Shown piece after piece: positions 35,981 through 41,062 of a DNA stretch of 64,000 bases; positions within the stretch are counted from its first letter, which is position 1; every line of letters starts with the position of its first letter. The notes under the pieces were generated by a model that was not told the origin of the DNA, searched no databases, and saw nothing but the letters and a program-made list of their open reading frames with translations. The translations under genes were made by a program, and so were the position numbers. This DNA is from Paraburkholderia largidicola (GTDB lineage Bacteria; Pseudomonadota; Gammaproteobacteria; Burkholderiales; Burkholderiaceae): assembly GCF_013426895.1 (NCBI RefSeq), contig NZ_AP023175.1, positions 1,426,001 through 1,490,000 on the forward strand. Direction: 5' to 3'.

Positions 35981-36072
35981 GCGGGTGGCTCCGTGTTATT
36001 TGTCCGTTCCGGGTGGAGGTGCGAAGTGTGAATCGTACCGGGTCTTTGGTTTTTGCGGTGCGGGGTTGTCGT

Positions 36073-36101
36073 TTGGTGTTGGTGTTGGTGTTGGTGTTGG
36101 T
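36073..36101 (+). repeat. TTGGTG hexanucleotide microsatellite
   Basis: Four perfect tandem TTGGTG units (36073-36096) and a partial fifth lie just left of the large inverted-repeat element, upstream of the solute-binding-protein gene. Slippage here could alter spacing in the promoter area. Confidence 0.7.
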
Positions 36102-36149
36102 TTGGTTTTGGGTCTGCGCTGGCATCCGCGTGACGTTATCGGTTCGCTA

Positions 36150-36742
36150 GCGTTGCCCCTGTGCGGGGCGGCACCTACTTTTCTTTGCCGCCGCAAAGAA
36201 AAGTAGGCAAAAGAAAGCGGCTCACACCGCCAGCACGTATTCTTATCCACGGGCCCCCAACGTCCCCACATTTCACACGGCAGCGATTTTGTTCGCGTGC
36301 GTTGCCAACGCTTTGAATGGAAGCCTCACCCGCTTCAGACACCCGCACACGGGCGAGCGGCAGCAAATGGTTTGTGCCGCCAAGGTGGCAAACGGTGTGT
36401 AGGTTGTCGCGTCGTTTAGCCTGGGGCTCTTACAGCGTGGGCCGCGTGCGCTATCGGTCCGAAGTCAGACGCGTGCAGTACCTGGGCCGACACAGAGTTT
36501 GCCGCCTGGGCGGCCGTGGACTATCTGGCACAGCGTGCCGCGACGCGGACACATGAAGCGGGTGAGGCGTCAATTAAGAGCGCTGGCAACGAGCATGTAT
36601 GACGTGATTGCCGCGTGAAGCGTAAGAACCTGTGGGGGCCCTCAAGCAAACACAAGAACTGGCGGTGTGAGCCGCTTTCTTTTGCCTACTTTTCTTTGCG
36701 GCGGCAAAGAAAAGTAGGTGCCGCCCCGCACAGGGGCAACGC
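36150..36742. repeat. Repeat element A: 593 bp, perfect 84-bp terminal inverted repeats
   Basis: The left arm (36150-36233) and right arm (36659-36742) are exact reverse complements over 84 bp, and both are identical to the arms of element B (40469-41062). Within each arm three hairpins can form: GCCCC-N5-GGGGC, a 15-bp stem CCTACTTTTCTTTGC with CGCC loop, and GCGG-N6-CCGC. The ~425-bp centre resembles that of element B but has many differences. It has an imperfect internal inverted repeat (a GTGCCGCC..GGCAAAC motif and its inverse near 36373 and 36491). No transposase or convincing gene. Weaker similarity between the copies continues ~30-40 bp outside. It lies between livF and the solute-binding-protein gene. 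Confidence 0.9.
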
Positions 36743-36814
36743 TTGAAGCACCAACGACAAAACGCGGACGCCAGCGCAAACACAAGCAAACCGCACCGCT
36801 TGCGCAGCAAAAAC

Positions 36815-36832
36815 CAAAATCAAAATCAAAAT
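36815..36832 (+). repeat. CAAAAT x3 microsatellite running into livF stop codon
   Basis: Three tandem CAAAAT units end on the first base of the livF stop (36832-36834 on the plus strand), followed by a partial CAAA. It marks the junction between the repeat element flank and livF. Confidence 0.7.
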
Positions 36833-37545
36833 CAAACCCCAAGATACGCCCGCCGCACGGCATCATCCTTAACAAGTTCGCGCATCGCACCCCCATACCG
36901 AATCTGCCCTTTCTCAAGCACGTAAGCGCGATCACTCACCAGCTCAGCGAAATGCACATTCTGCTCCGAAAGGAGAATAGAGAGCCCTTCACGCTTCAGC
37001 TCAAGAATCATATTAGCTATCTGCTCGACGATCACAGGCGCGACGCCTTCCGACGGCTCGTCGAGCAACACCAGATACGGATTCCCCATCAGCGTCCGCG
37101 CCACAGTCAGCATCTGCTGCTCGCCGCCGCTCATCTGCCCACCAGGACGCTGCGGCATTTCCCCGAGATTCGGAAACAGCTTGAAGAGCTTGTCAGGCGT
37201 CCAGGAGGGCGCACCCGCTCGCGCCGGCTGACGCCCCGTGTCGAGGTTCTCCATCACGGTAAGACCAGAAAACACTCGACGATCTTCGGGCACGTAACCG
37301 AGCCCCATCCGCGCAATCCGATGCGTCGGCAACGCGGAGATATCCGCCCCGTCGAATTGAATCGCGCCTTCGCGCCGCGCCATCAATCCCATGATCGACT
37401 TCATCGTCGTCGATTTGCCCGCGCCGTTGCGGCCCATCAGCGCGACGACTTCGCCGCGCCCCACTTCGAGGCTCACGTCGAAGAGGATTTGCGCGCGTCC
37501 GTAGAACGCGTTCAGTCCATCGACTTTCAGCAGCGGTGCATTCAT
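36832..37545 (-). CDS. livF: Branched-chain-type ABC transporter ATP-binding protein LivF (237 aa)
   Basis: ABC ATPase of LivF length with Walker A GRNGAGKST, Q-loop region, signature MSGGEQQML and Walker B YLVLLDEPSEG. The C-terminal part is typical of LivF (VLEKGQIRYGGAMRELVKDDAVRRAYLGV). Its ATG overlaps the livG stop (ATGA), so they are translationally coupled. It energises uptake with LivG and the fused permease. Confidence 0.95.
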   Translation of the reverse strand: MNAPLLKVDGLNAFYGRAQILFDVSLEVGRGEVVALMGRNGAGKSTTMKSIMGLMARREGAIQFDGADISALPTHRIARMGLGYVPEDRRVFSGLTVMENLDTGRQPARAGAPSWTPDKLFKLFPNLGEMPQRPGGQMSGGEQQMLTVARTLMGNPYLVLLDEPSEGVAPVIVEQIANMILELKREGLSILLSEQNVHFAELVSDRAYVLEKGQIRYGGAMRELVKDDAVRRAYLGV

Positions 37546-38348
37546 GCGCGCGGCTCCGTGTGTGACTCGCCGCGATCGCCCGATAACGCCGCGCGCGGCT
37601 GGAACGTCTTGCCCGTGCCGAAGTAGACGGCCTGCACGTTGGCGTCGTTGCGTATCGTGTCCGCGTCGCCCTGCGCAATCAGCTTGCCGCGTGCCAGCAC
37701 GATGATCCGGTCCGCGCTGGAAAATACGACGTCCATGCTGTGCTCGGTGAACAGCACGCCGATATTACGCTCGGCTGAAAGACGCTTCGTCAGCGCCATC
37801 AGATCGGTGCGTTCCTGCGGCGCCATGCCCGCCGTCGGTTCGTCCATCAGTAGAAGCTTTGGACAGTTCGCGAGCGCAATGGCCATCTCGACACGCTTCA
37901 CGTCGCCATAGGCGAGCACGCTGCACGCGCGATACGCATGCGCCGTCATGCCGACCTGATCGAGCAGCGCAAGCGCTTCATCCTCGAAGTGCGACGCCGC
38001 CGGTTTCCACAAGCCGTACAGACGCTGTTCGCGCGATACGAGCGCCATCTGCACGTTCTCGAGCACGGTCATCGAGTTGAAGGTCGCCGCGACCTGGAAC
38101 GTCCGGCCGACGCCGCGCCGCCAGATATCGCGCGGCCGCATGCCGACGAGCTCGTGTCCGTCGAGCATCACCGAGCCATGCGTCGGACGTAGCTGTCCGT
38201 TGACGATGTTGAAACACGTCGATTTACCCGCGCCGTTCGGGCCGATCAAGGCCAATAGTTCGCCGGGTTTTACGTCGAACGAAACGTCGTCGACGGCTTT
38301 CACGCCGCCGAACGACATCGACAGATTCGATACTCGTAGAAGGCTCAT
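37542..38348 (-). CDS. livG: Branched-chain-type ABC transporter ATP-binding protein LivG (268 aa)
   Basis: ABC ATPase with Walker A GPNGAGKST, the LivG-like signature VLAYGDVKRVEMA and Walker B LLLMDEPTAGM. The C-terminal region is RIIVLARGKLIAQGDADTIRNDANVQAVYFG. I use the ATG at 38348 (MSLLRVSNLSMSFGG), which overlaps the permease stop by 4 bp; the open frame reads further into the permease gene but only as an overlapping frame. Coupled on both sides. Confidence 0.95.
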   Translation of the reverse strand: MSLLRVSNLSMSFGGVKAVDDVSFDVKPGELLALIGPNGAGKSTCFNIVNGQLRPTHGSVMLDGHELVGMRPRDIWRRGVGRTFQVAATFNSMTVLENVQMALVSREQRLYGLWKPAASHFEDEALALLDQVGMTAHAYRACSVLAYGDVKRVEMAIALANCPKLLLMDEPTAGMAPQERTDLMALTKRLSAERNIGVLFTEHSMDVVFSSADRIIVLARGKLIAQGDADTIRNDANVQAVYFGTGKTFQPRAALSGDRGESHTEPRA

Positions 38349-40246
38349 TGTCGGCCTCCCGCTCGTGCATCGTCGCGCTCGAAGCGCTCGCGCACGAACC
38401 CTACGATGCCTTGCGGAAAAGCGATCACGAGCAGCAGAATCGCGATGCCGAGCAGCGCCTGCCAGTAATCGGTCTGACGCGCGACTGTGTCCTGCAGCCA
38501 CGTGAATAACGCCGCGCCCGCCACAGGCCCCGTCAACGTCTGGATGCCGCCGAGCAGCACCATCACGAGTCCGTCGACGGAACGGCTCACGCTGATCACT
38601 TCCGGCGAAATCGTGCCTTTGGAAAACGCGTACAGCGAACCAGCGAGCCCGCAGAACAGCGACGCGATCACGAATGCGGCCCACTGCACGCGCTTCGTAT
38701 CGATGCCGATCGCTTCCGCGCGCAACATCGAATCGCGGGACGCGCGCATGGCGAATCCAAGCGGCGAGAACAGCATGCGGCGCAGCAGCCACACGCCGAG
38801 CACGGCGAATGCCAGCGTCAGATAGTAATAAGCGACGGGCGACGACAGCCAGTTCGACGGCCATAGCCCGAGAATGCCGTTGCTGCCGCCCGTCACGTCA
38901 TCCCATTGATACACGACCGACCAGACGATCTGCGCAAACGCGAGCGTGAGCATCGCCAGATACACGCCCGACAGGCGCACGCAGAACCAGCCGAACACCA
39001 GCGCGCCGAGCACGGCGAGTAACGGGCCGAGAACGAGCGCGACTTCCATCGGCAGATCGAGCACTTTCAGAAAGAGCGCCGCGCCGTATGCACCGAGCCC
39101 GAAGTACGCGGCATGACCGAACGAATGCATGCCGCCCGGCCCCATGATGAAGTGCAGGCTCGCCGCGAACAGCACGGCAATCAAAATTTCGACGAGCAGC
39201 ACGGGCATGTACGGAAACGCGCTGGCGGCGAGCGGCGCAAGCACGAGCACGGCCAGCACGCATGCCGCGAGCCACTTGAGCGGCTTGCCTGCGGGCTTCA
39301 AGGGCATGTCGGCGGGCGCCGCCGCGCGAACCGTCGACGTCGGGCGTCCCAGCAGGCCCCATGGCCGCACCACGAGCACCACGGCCATCACGACGAACTC
39401 CGCGACGAGCGTGAAGCGGCTCAACGAAATATCGACGCCGAACAGCGACACATGTCCGATGCCGATGCACAGCGCCTTGATCTCCGCAATCAGCAATGCC
39501 GCGATGAACGCGCCGGGAATCGAGCCCATCCCTCCTACTACTACGACGACGAACGCATTGCCGATTGTTTCGAGATCGAGCGACAGATTCGCCGACATGC
39601 GCGGCCCCTGCAGTGCACCGCCAAGCCCCGCGAGAAACGCGCCGACGAAGAACACGCCCGTGAACAGCCACGCCTGGTTGATGCCGAGCGCGCCGAGCAT
39701 CTCTCGATCCTGCGTCGCCGCGCGCACCAGCGTGCCCCAGCGCGTGCGCGTCAACGCATACCAGAGCAACAGGAGCACGAGCGGCCCGATCACGATCAGC
39801 GCGATGTCCCACGTGGGCAGCTGATGGCCGAGCAGTTCGACGGCGCCGGACAGATGCGGCGCGCGCGGGCCGAACAGGTCTTGCGGTCCCCAGATCGCGA
39901 GGGCGGCGTCGCGGAAGATCAGGACCAGCGCAAATGTCGCGAGCAGATGGAACAACTCGGGGGCTTTGTAGATGCGCCTCAGGACGATGAACTCGACGAG
40001 CGCGCCGAGCAGGCCGATCACGAGCGCCGATGCGAGCATCGACAGCCAGAAGCCCAAGATGCTGCTGCTGCCGAAACGGCTCGCGATGCTGTAGGCGACG
40101 TAGATGCCTAGCATGTAGAACGAGCCATGCGCGAAGTTGACGATGCGCGTGACGCCGAAGATCAGCGACAGGCCCGCAGCAACGAGAAAGAGCGCCGAAG
40201 CGTCGGCGAGTCCGTTTATCAATTGGACCAGCAGGTTGGGGAGCAT
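38345..40246 (-). CDS. Fused LivH-LivM ABC transporter permease (633 aa)
   Basis: A single chain holds both permease halves. Residues about 1-300 are LivH-like (LINGLADASALFLVAAGLSLIFGVTRIVNFAHGSFYMLG, with GGMGSIPGAFIAALLIAE). A linker follows (around 310-335), then a LivM-like half to about 620 (FIMGPGGMHSFGHAAYFGLGAYGAALFLK, GGIQTLTGPVAGAALFTWLQD). Such fusions occur in beta-proteobacterial hydrophobic-amino-acid transporters. The start ATG at 40246 (MLPNLLVQLING) begins the first helix; the open frame extends 66 codons into repeat-like DNA with a Lys/Pro-rich spurious sequence. Confidence 0.92.
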   Translation of the reverse strand: MLPNLLVQLINGLADASALFLVAAGLSLIFGVTRIVNFAHGSFYMLGIYVAYSIASRFGSSSILGFWLSMLASALVIGLLGALVEFIVLRRIYKAPELFHLLATFALVLIFRDAALAIWGPQDLFGPRAPHLSGAVELLGHQLPTWDIALIVIGPLVLLLLWYALTRTRWGTLVRAATQDREMLGALGINQAWLFTGVFFVGAFLAGLGGALQGPRMSANLSLDLETIGNAFVVVVVGGMGSIPGAFIAALLIAEIKALCIGIGHVSLFGVDISLSRFTLVAEFVVMAVVLVVRPWGLLGRPTSTVRAAAPADMPLKPAGKPLKWLAACVLAVLVLAPLAASAFPYMPVLLVEILIAVLFAASLHFIMGPGGMHSFGHAAYFGLGAYGAALFLKVLDLPMEVALVLGPLLAVLGALVFGWFCVRLSGVYLAMLTLAFAQIVWSVVYQWDDVTGGSNGILGLWPSNWLSSPVAYYYLTLAFAVLGVWLLRRMLFSPLGFAMRASRDSMLRAEAIGIDTKRVQWAAFVIASLFCGLAGSLYAFSKGTISPEVISVSRSVDGLVMVLLGGIQTLTGPVAGAALFTWLQDTVARQTDYWQALLGIAILLLVIAFPQGIVGFVRERFERDDARAGGRQ

Positions 40247-40468
40247 TTTTGCCTGGCGGCGGGGGGTCGGTTTGGGTTTGATTCGGTGTTTGGGCGACAG
40301 GTATACCGGAAATGTTTTTGGTTTGCAGGGGTTTTTGATCTGCGGTTTGGGTTTTTTGTTGGCATTCGCCGGGCTTTGATGTTGGTTTGCCTTTGCGCTG
40401 GCATCCGTGTATTGCCTGCGGATTGCTTGCTTTTGGGTTGGCATCCGCGTTTTGTTATTGGTTCGCGA

Positions 40469-41062
40469 GCGTTGCCCCTGTGCGGGGCGGCACCTACTTT
40501 TCTTTGCCGCCGCAAAGAAAAGTAGGCAAAAGAAAGCGGCTCACACCGCCAGCCCATGTTCCTATCCACGGGCCCCCAACGTCCCCATGCTTCACACAGC
40601 AACGTCTTTATCTGCGTGCGTTGCCAACGCTTTGAATAAATGCCTCACCCGCTTCAAACACCCGTACTCAAGCACGCGACAGTGAATGGCATGTGCCGCC
40701 CAGGTGGCAAACTGTGTGCAGGTTGTCGCGTCGTATAGCGTGGTGCTCTTACAGCGTGGAACGCGTGCGCCATGGGTCCGAAGTGAGGCGTGTGGAGCAC
40801 AAAGGGCCTACACACAGTTTGCCACCTGGGCGGCGGCGGACTATCTGGCGCGGCATGCTGAAGTGCGGGAGCGTGAAGCAGGTGAGGCGCACTGCAAGAA
40901 CGCTGGCAACGGACGTCAGTCACATGATTGCCGCGTGAAGCGTAAGAACCTGTGGGGGCCCTCAGGCAAGTACTAGAACTGGCGGTGTGAGCCGCTTTCT
41001 TTTGCCTACTTTTCTTTGCGGCGGCAAAGAAAAGTAGGTGCCGCCCCGCACAGGGGCAACGC
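40469..41062. repeat. Repeat element B: 594 bp, perfect 84-bp terminal inverted repeats
   Basis: Same architecture and orientation as element A: arms 40469-40552 and 40979-41062 are perfect inverted repeats and identical to A's arms. The centre contains a perfect 23-bp inverted repeat (40696-40718 and 40811-40833) enclosing ~92 bp. The region between arms differs from A at many positions, so arm identity exceeds centre identity. Flanking similarity (GCATCCGCG left; a GCCAGCGCAAAC-containing flank right) also continues outward. It lies between pcaC and the fused permease; with element A it brackets livFG and the permease in direct orientation. Confidence 0.9.

Follow-up and report, generated by a model that had tools for sequence, protein, structure and literature searches.

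The window analysed here, a stretch of 64,000 nucleotides from Paraburkholderia largidicola (positions 1426001-1490000 of contig C2; the genome is called G000 below), contains two copies, A and B, of what appears to be a non-coding element interspersed in many copies in Paraburkholderia genomes; its working part would be the arm found, inverted, at either end. Read outward, that is from the centre of the element towards its flank, the arm very probably folds into an H-type pseudoknot with a major-groove triple helix, followed by a hairpin, judging by the way its letters change together across species. This fold probably acts as RNA rather than as DNA. As a more tentative proposal, which we would expect to fail somewhat more often than to hold, the two arms may be back-to-back RNA 3'-end modules acting in termination or stabilisation.

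Covariation within the arm

Read outward, the arm consists of GCz'GC, an 8-nt pyrimidine loop (L1), a G, CCTAC followed by a pyrimidine stem strand, GCn2'GC, a short spacer, the complementary purine stem strand with GTAGG, and then a hairpin (H1). The two predicted stems of the pseudoknot are called S1 and S2. In the right arm of A these parts are placed as follows (positions in the window):

36671..36742, + strand: RNA module of the right arm of A, outward; 102.5 bits against the arm covariance model
36671..36675, + strand: S1 5' strand, GCCGC; partner 36698-36702; column 3-30 holds GC 21, CG 14, UA 1, other 2
36676..36683, + strand: L1, UUUCUUUU, proposed third strand; parallel to 36706-36713, with mirror covariation
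36685..36697, + strand: S2 5' strand, CCUACUUUUCUUU; partner 36706-36718; 99.8% of cells paired, 5 pairs changed on both sides
36698..36702, + strand: S1 3' strand, GCGGC, within the S2 loop; loop-pairing covariation
36706..36718, + strand: S2 3' strand, AAAGAAAAGUAGG, purine strand of the proposed triple; stem and triple covariation
36723..36737, + strand: H1 hairpin, GCCCC-GCACA-GGGGC; pair 53-67 changes from G-C to C-G in 2 rows; overlaps Rfam family RF02421

The pairing of the S2 loop with sequence outside the stem was followed in 356 Paraburkholderia arms, parsed from 408 H1-anchored places; the arms span 55 labels, and the true number of genomes is lower, as some assemblies stand under two labels (e.g., P. 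tagetis, G133). The regular expression used for parsing fixed most of the GC letters around positions n2 and z, and left n2, z, the stem and L1 free. Loop position n2 was complementary to the downstream position z in 354 of the 356 arms, as C-G (223), G-C (124) or T-A (7). Since this pairing is kept in elements whose two arms differ (P. tagetis), it is not due to the complementarity of the left and right arms. In a separate structure test with pseudoknot brackets, on 38 eight-nucleotide arms, 98.9% of cells were paired, versus 94.9 +/- 0.4% in shuffles (0/500 reached the observed value; relatedness inflates such shuffles) and 48-64% in slid controls.

The same arms displayed a third-strand match. 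L1 matched the purine strand of the stem in a parallel, Hoogsteen-like register in 349/356 cases. When the stem was changed (79 arms), L1 was changed to match it in 73 and kept the majority third strand in 1, although 61 of these 79 stems are the symmetric TTTCTTT, in which only length is informative. Asymmetric stems distinguish a mirror from a copy: L1 was the reversed stem in 292 of 295 and a direct copy in none. A pyrimidine-purine-pyrimidine (Y.R-Y) triple helix is the only base-specific contact known to us that would give a parallel mirror match of this kind.

A covariance model of the arm, built from Paraburkholderia only, extended these observations to ten other genera, with 42 full-length matches in 30 loci from 28 genomes. 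We could parse 39 of them, representing all ten genera, with L1 allowed up to 12 letters and the leading C dropped from the stem; the remainder were two with a longer loop and one without a separate L1. When a match was defined as an L1 ending with the reversed stem, or with at most one extra letter at its end (3/39), the third strand matched in 39/39, exactly in 36 and with one or two extra letters in 3. Among asymmetric stems L1 was reversed in 18/18 and direct in 0, but 14 of the 18 are the commonest variant, so that new information comes only from TTCTCTTT, TTTCTTTT, TCTTCTTT and TTTCTT, and from the length changes TTTCTTT and TTTTTT. By a crude parser, the S1 pairing came to 5 bp at some of these loci and to 0-4 at others, being weaker in, e.g., L297 and L307. 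Altogether, the triple match holds for seven or more stem variants, of which five are asymmetric, in eleven genera including Paraburkholderia. To our knowledge, a covarying base triple is rarely visible in sequence data. In two loci, L301 (G176) and L309 (G167), a further long hairpin sits in the core loop; the letters of L1 and of the stem seem unaltered there and were left unscored by the parser.

The original prediction that each arm folds into three stacked hairpins was borne out by single-sequence folding, but the comparison across species supports two hairpins and a loop-to-downstream pairing, the 5' side of the third hairpin covarying with the loop of the middle one. This covariation makes the arm a structured-RNA candidate.

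If the fold acts as RNA, the outward strand is likely the one that carries it. The pyrimidine third strand favours this strand, and so does RF02421 (Bp1_684), which matches both ends of A on it with 37.7 and 27.4 bits, below the 44-bit gathering cut-off (no Rfam match in the window reached the gathering threshold). The RF02421 alignment covers H1 and the preceding AGAAAAGU, which is the 3' end of the stem, on the same strand. Wobble-type departures in S2 read as G.U on the outward strand in 5/5 cases, four of which are the same change in four genomes.

Elements A and B and the wider copy population

As predicted originally, A and B are two direct copies with perfect terminal inverted repeats (TIRs). 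Their lengths are 593 and 594 bp, they lie 4319-4320 bp from each other in direct orientation, and B is 86% identical to A. The arms of A (36149-36233 and 36659-36743, 85 nt each) are 100% complementary, and the predicted likeness of all four arms is seen in their identical module scores of 102.5 bits. Element A folds, on either strand, into one long imperfect palindrome, with a minimum free energy as RNA of -386 and -392 kcal/mol and z-scores of -20 and -25 on the two strands (100 shuffles per strand). The palindrome extends past the arms into flanking boxes related to GCTGGCATCCGCG, a T/G-rich left zone and an A/C-rich right zone; outside each arm there follow, in order, a short variable linker, the box GCTGGCATCCGCG or its complement, and strand-biased sequence. 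The predicted lack of a convincing gene was also found: inspection of open reading frames (ORFs) in the intact element revealed none of convincing size, and the centre finds no support as a conserved coding region. The names of genes in the window (livF, livG, the permease, the substrate-binding protein and others) are readings of ORFs. Element A lies between livF and an ABC substrate-binding-protein gene, and B between the permease gene and a carboxymuconolactone-decarboxylase-like gene; in both cases the flanking genes are codirectional. The other features are:

36010..36149 (outer limit approximate), - strand: left outer zone of A; on the outward strand an A/C-rich, T-poor exit, including linker and box
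36118..36130, + strand: outer box GCTGGCATCCGCG left of A; 308 exact matches genome-wide on both strands
36150..36742, no strand: element A; two 84-bp arms and a 425-bp centre, one imperfect palindrome
36150..36221, - strand: RNA module of the left arm of A, outward (predicted pseudoknot, triple helix and H1); 102.5 bits, E 9e-31
36743..36830, + strand: right exit zone of A; comprises the linker, a box (36763-36775) with one variant base, and A/C-rich sequence up to the livF stop
40437..40449, + strand: outer box left of B, with one variant base; sequence reading
40469..41062, no strand: element B, 594 bp; 86% identity to A
40469..40540, - strand: RNA module of the left arm of B, outward; 102.5 bits
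40991..41062, + strand: RNA module of the right arm of B, outward; 102.5 bits
41082..41094, + strand: outer box right of B, CGCGGATGCCAGC; sequence reading

The arm core occurs 342 times in G000 (control 0), which would correspond to about 171 elements if every core were paired and is close to the number of boxes (308 vs. 342); the element is thus the multi-copy intergenic repeat that had been suggested. The best 40 of 241 candidates from a DNA search, when scored, comprised A and 39 others of 591-595 bp, 85-89% identical, on three large contigs; copies were found on C1, C2 and C3. The regions of G000 that were fetched contain 49 core pairs and 5 single cores. Contrary to the possibility that no further copies exist, the arm core was present in 77 of 144 Paraburkholderia genomes (that of the window included), at 0 to 365 cores each, and the arm covariance model matched 145/299 genomes of the family in 11/25 genera; up to 16 candidates were scored per genome, so that a count of 16 is a lower bound. 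A core pattern with at most two mismatches was found in 20/349 family genomes, all of them Paraburkholderia. Among the at least 120 matching stretches listed, the names are those of Paraburkholderia species and 'Burkholderia sp.' records. Nine rows of a plasmid collection included six Paraburkholderia records with a full-length copy and two Caballeronia records with arm-sized matches only; no annotated feature lay under the match in these nine rows, in a collection whose gene table is incomplete. The arm had no match in a phage collection.

The spacing between cores is near-constant within some genomes, at ~370 (G013), ~415 (G002) and ~511 bp (G000), and variable in others (401 and 481 in G009; H1 spacings from ~500 to 1080 bp in G027). 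Genomes without the core may keep the H1 hairpin (24 of 25 tested), and G109 has divergent arms. In several species, among the matches listed, the arms match while the centre has no match to that of A at E 1e-3. Many short-read draft contigs, those of G109 included, stop within the element or next to it, which probably makes the copy numbers counted in draft genomes too low. Compact forms without arms or centre, made of outer boxes that enclose or adjoin one H1 hairpin, or of two nearly abutting boxes, were seen in L231 and L234 (G011) and L232 (G014); they are possible remnants or building blocks of the element. Upstream of the site-A element of G021 (L064), box, linker and the start of H1 are repeated in tandem, as a minisatellite of element parts.

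The arms are more constrained than the centres, in agreement with the original prediction. In an alignment of 46 of 54 core groups, a non-random sample made of the best-scoring copies and those from the first 2.35 Mb of C1, 78/84 columns of the left arm and 77/84 last columns of the right arm were invariant, whereas the centres had a mean pairwise identity of 0.794; element lengths were 588-596. Linkage disequilibrium among 41 distinct copies died away over about 80 bp: r2 was 0.17 for sites 1-5 bp apart, ~0.04 at distances of 40-160 bp and 0.03 farther out. All four gametes were present in 10236 of 13348 site pairs (77%). Both the decay and the four-gamete counts indicate that the copies exchange sequence freely, which fits the early idea of gene conversion between them. 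In one copy (L023:5982-6576), the alignment reads as if one end of the centre matched the opposite end of typical own copies in reverse, and this pattern suggests exchange between element halves.

Sites A and B could be followed in relatives. Both hold a two-core element in G047, G134 and G021; G107 has one core at each site, and site A is occupied in G106. Empty sites were also found, in 8 aligned relatives at site A, where the anchor-to-anchor stretch is 99-149 bp; the flanks of these empty sites are too diverged for placing the ends of the element, and no target duplication was definable. Centres at orthologous sites were no closer to each other than to paralogues, 18 to 42 of 45 own paralogues being closer (A and B, three genomes), which adds to the case for exchange. 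Shared sites with such centres indicate that the insertions are old and that their sequences have since been reshuffled, probably by free recombination or conversion, although occupied sites in relatives may also represent independent insertion at the same place. The occupancy of both sites in related species goes against reading the identity of the arms as a sign of recent movement, and the deletion of livFG and the permease gene by recombination between A and B has not happened in the three relatives that keep both copies.

Some copies carry insertion sequences (ISs). In L028, L045 and L047 (C1 of G000, near 487685, 1374910 and 2196390), three arms have the same ~1.1-kb IS with a 341-aa frame, presumably IS30-like, which sits at the foot of the core hairpin or close to it. 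Another of ~1.28 kb with a 386-aa frame, which we take to be IS481-like, lies in the loop of the core hairpin in L029 and L032 (C1 of G000), and similar ends occur in L265 (G098) and L275 (G142). In L097 (G005:C1:2042682-2044570) an arm is interrupted by an IS256-like element with a 425-aa frame. The arms thus seem to be hot spots for hairpin-seeking ISs. Longer copies were considered as autonomous elements and rejected, because those examined (five own, one of G005) carry secondary IS insertions instead. The element is not an intact transposon, and no known transposon matched it in the searches run.

Possible roles of the arms

In the proposal that we tentatively prefer, the outward arm would be a ~72-nt RNA module. 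Its U-rich loop of 8 nt would occupy the major groove of an A/G-U/C stem, forming U.A-U and C+.G-C triples, and a short hairpin and then an A/C-rich exit would come next. Two such modules, back to back around a long fold-back centre and mostly placed just past stop codons, would make a bidirectional 3'-end element: RNA polymerase entering from either side would leave through the far arm. The triple helix and the hairpin would block 3'-to-5' decay, and the A/C-rich, G-poor exit would let Rho halt transcription ahead of the neighbouring gene. The copies would have spread long ago as non-autonomous repeats, and would exchange sequence while retaining the arm under selection. The proposal supposes that the outward strand is present as a cellular RNA, and that each arm folds on itself rather than into an arm-arm duplex.

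The positions of the copies are consistent with it. With a simple codon-usage gene caller, the genes neighbouring 47 own copies were convergent in 27 cases, codirectional in 19 and divergent in 1, compared with 58, 98 and 43 when every gap of 30 bp or more in these loci is counted, those holding elements included. The flanks of the element were gene 3' ends in 73/94, at a median distance of 113 bp. Over 75 nt past the arm, the outward strand contained A 0.40, C 0.32, G 0.20 and T 0.08, with C exceeding G in 86/92 own flanks and in 55/58 flanks under 12 other labels, in which the box sequence can differ. Terminator-like matches were also more frequent than in shuffles (8 vs. 1.8).

Several observations weigh against such a role. 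The outer two pairs of H1 are mostly T-G inward, and therefore C-A outward, both being so in 192/273 arms, and H1 folds longer inward than outward; these pairs led us to weigh the proposal down and two of its rivals slightly up. The triple was broken in 7/356 arms and the loop pairing in 2/356. A promoter search revealed no sigma-70-like promoter around A, the A/C-rich exit resembles a Rho site in composition only, and placement at 3' ends could be due to selection against insertions into promoters. If the element is transcribed in full, pairing of its two arms into an 84-bp duplex would rival the pseudoknot. Outside Paraburkholderia, the module lies between genes reading as pdhB and lpdA in genera g12, g25 and g14 (L307, L308, L311, L309 and L297), at 1-4 copies per genome in six g12 genomes tested and 1 in two g25 genomes, and its strand in L307 is antisense to both genes, which fits poorly with a simple mRNA 3'-end role at that place. 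Finally, the centre was considered as a covarying helix and rejected: of the 231 pairs in its consensus, 86 are variable on both sides, and true compensations among them are few, so that clear covariation of centres, a check proposed at the outset, did not emerge. If the arms nonetheless are RNA modules, at least 100 genes per genome would have the same ready-made triple-helix 3' element at their disposal, with consequences for our view of how bacterial mRNAs are ended and protected and of the purpose of interspersed palindromes.

A less probable alternative, yet one to be taken seriously, is a selfish element related to miniature inverted-repeat transposable elements (MITEs) or to REPINs, i.e., inverted pairs of repetitive extragenic palindromes (REPs). 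Its arms would be TIRs recognised as single-stranded DNA or a cruciform by a transposase supplied in trans, and the triple-containing fold would be one of DNA, with no role as RNA. The element has some features of a MITE (TIRs, non-coding sequence, many copies) and some of a REPIN (GTAG beside a hairpin, inverted pairs, high copy number), and we read its GTAGGT-hairpin layout as resembling GTAG-type REPs. The high and patchy copy number (0 to 365 cores within the genus), the genome-specific core spacing, near-constant in G013, G002 and G000 though not in G009 and G027, the empty site in 8 aligned relatives, and the constrained arms around a free centre all agree with this alternative, and the outer pairs of H1 offer no support for the outward strand. 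On the other hand, sites A and B are stable across relatives, the module is present 1-4 times in each of the six g12 genomes tested, and the distribution of candidate transposases does not follow that of the repeat. Some Y1 match was found in 143/144 genomes of the genus, mostly at the ~4e-5 level, and the best match in the high-copy genomes G000, G021, G134 and G107 has an E of only ~4e-5; strong matches occur in the high-copy G047 (8.6e-34, with an internal stop) and G106 (4.1e-41), but also in the low- or zero-copy G008, G029 and G100. We rejected a system of REPINs with a REP-associated tyrosine transposase (RAYT), as there is no consistent RAYT in high-copy genomes and the two Y1 genes of G000 have no arm motif within ~1.5 kb on each side. 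Even as selfish DNA, the copies would constitute a freely recombining population with conserved ends in one genome, in which gene conversion between repeats becomes measurable.

It is unlikely that each arm is instead a separate small RNA (sRNA) gene, trans-acting or binding a protein as a many-copy sponge, with the palindrome merely carrying two of them. The match of RF02421 to the outward strand speaks for it. The source of this family (PMC3521395, 2012) describes a single 114-nt sRNA, Bp1_Cand684_SIPHT, listed in its table of candidates validated by reverse transcription PCR; a figure legend places it beside pdhB and lpdA, where the module also lies in g12, g25 and g14, and a possible trans-acting role is suggested by the authors. 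The word 'repeat' does not occur in the main text of that paper. An sRNA gene is harder to reconcile with a promoter search that found no such site around A, and with a genome that has 342 cores, most of them placed at the 3' ends of genes.

We consider it improbable that the arm is an architectural site in DNA, that is a supercoil-driven cruciform or an H-DNA triplex for replication, segregation or nucleoid folding. A long perfect palindrome with a homopurine mirror repeat, present on C1, C2 and C3, could be so employed, but H-DNA requires the mirror repeat only and not the additional covarying stem and loop pairings, and the range from 0 to 365 cores within one genus is hardly that of such a site. 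A long shot is that a class of bacterial RNA spanning the family, with a covarying major-groove triple helix as its framework, has turned into a mobile repeat. The outward RNA, shielded by that helix, would itself be the intermediate through which copies spread, being turned back into DNA behind genes, and the fold-back centre would be made by second-strand or template-switch synthesis. An artefact of assembly or annotation, to which draft contigs ending inside the element might point, is made unlikely by the 342 cores, and refuted by the same sites in independent assemblies and by copies on replicons of the plasmid collection.

Comparison with known systems

In searches of the open-licence literature, neither this repeat nor a comparable triple in any interspersed repeat of bacteria turned up. 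A predicted fold of this kind would be unexpected in a common type of bacterial repeat. The closest relative in Rfam, RF02421, shares H1 and the 3' end of the stem with the arm, on the outward strand, as well as the pdhB/lpdA neighbourhood. However, its Rfam consensus consists of hairpins only, whereas both a pseudoknot and a triple are predicted for the arm; the family may thus be re-read as part of a larger fold.

Like REPs, bacterial interspersed mosaic elements (BIMEs) and REPINs, the element is palindromic, intergenic, present in many copies as inverted pairs, enriched at gene 3' ends and apparently a hot spot for ISs. These repeats measure tens to ~100 bp, as opposed to ~600-770 bp here, and the present element differs also in its module with a predicted pseudoknot and triple and in the absence of a consistent RAYT. 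In the available text of a survey of GTAG and CGTC REPs (PMC3733652), Burkholderia, Ralstonia and Cupriavidus are not named; 'C. taiwanensis' occurs there three times, for CGTC repeats, so that the wider group is partly covered. Bacterial MITEs and ERIC-like palindromes resemble A and B in having TIRs and no gene, but in the present case the arms are alike across species while the centres of several species are unmatched to that of A.

Telomerase-RNA-type pseudoknots and the SAM-II and preQ1-II riboswitches are H-type pseudoknots that place their loop 1 in the major groove, where it forms U.A-U triples. The predicted triple of the arm differs in that it covaries as U.A-U and C+.G-C over 5-8 positions, and in that the proposed RNA would be the end of an interspersed repeat. 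Triple-helix RNA stability elements named ENEs (elements for nuclear expression) are also present in plant retrotransposons, according to the available text of PMC12501189, and the likeness lies in an RNA-protecting triple helix, which is a proposal for the arm, and in the link to transposable elements; were the outward RNA an intermediate of spread, it would be a bacterial counterpart of such retrotransposon RNAs. As that source describes it, an ENE acts with the 3' tail of the RNA, whereas the fold proposed for the arm would be self-contained, bacterial and paired back to back.

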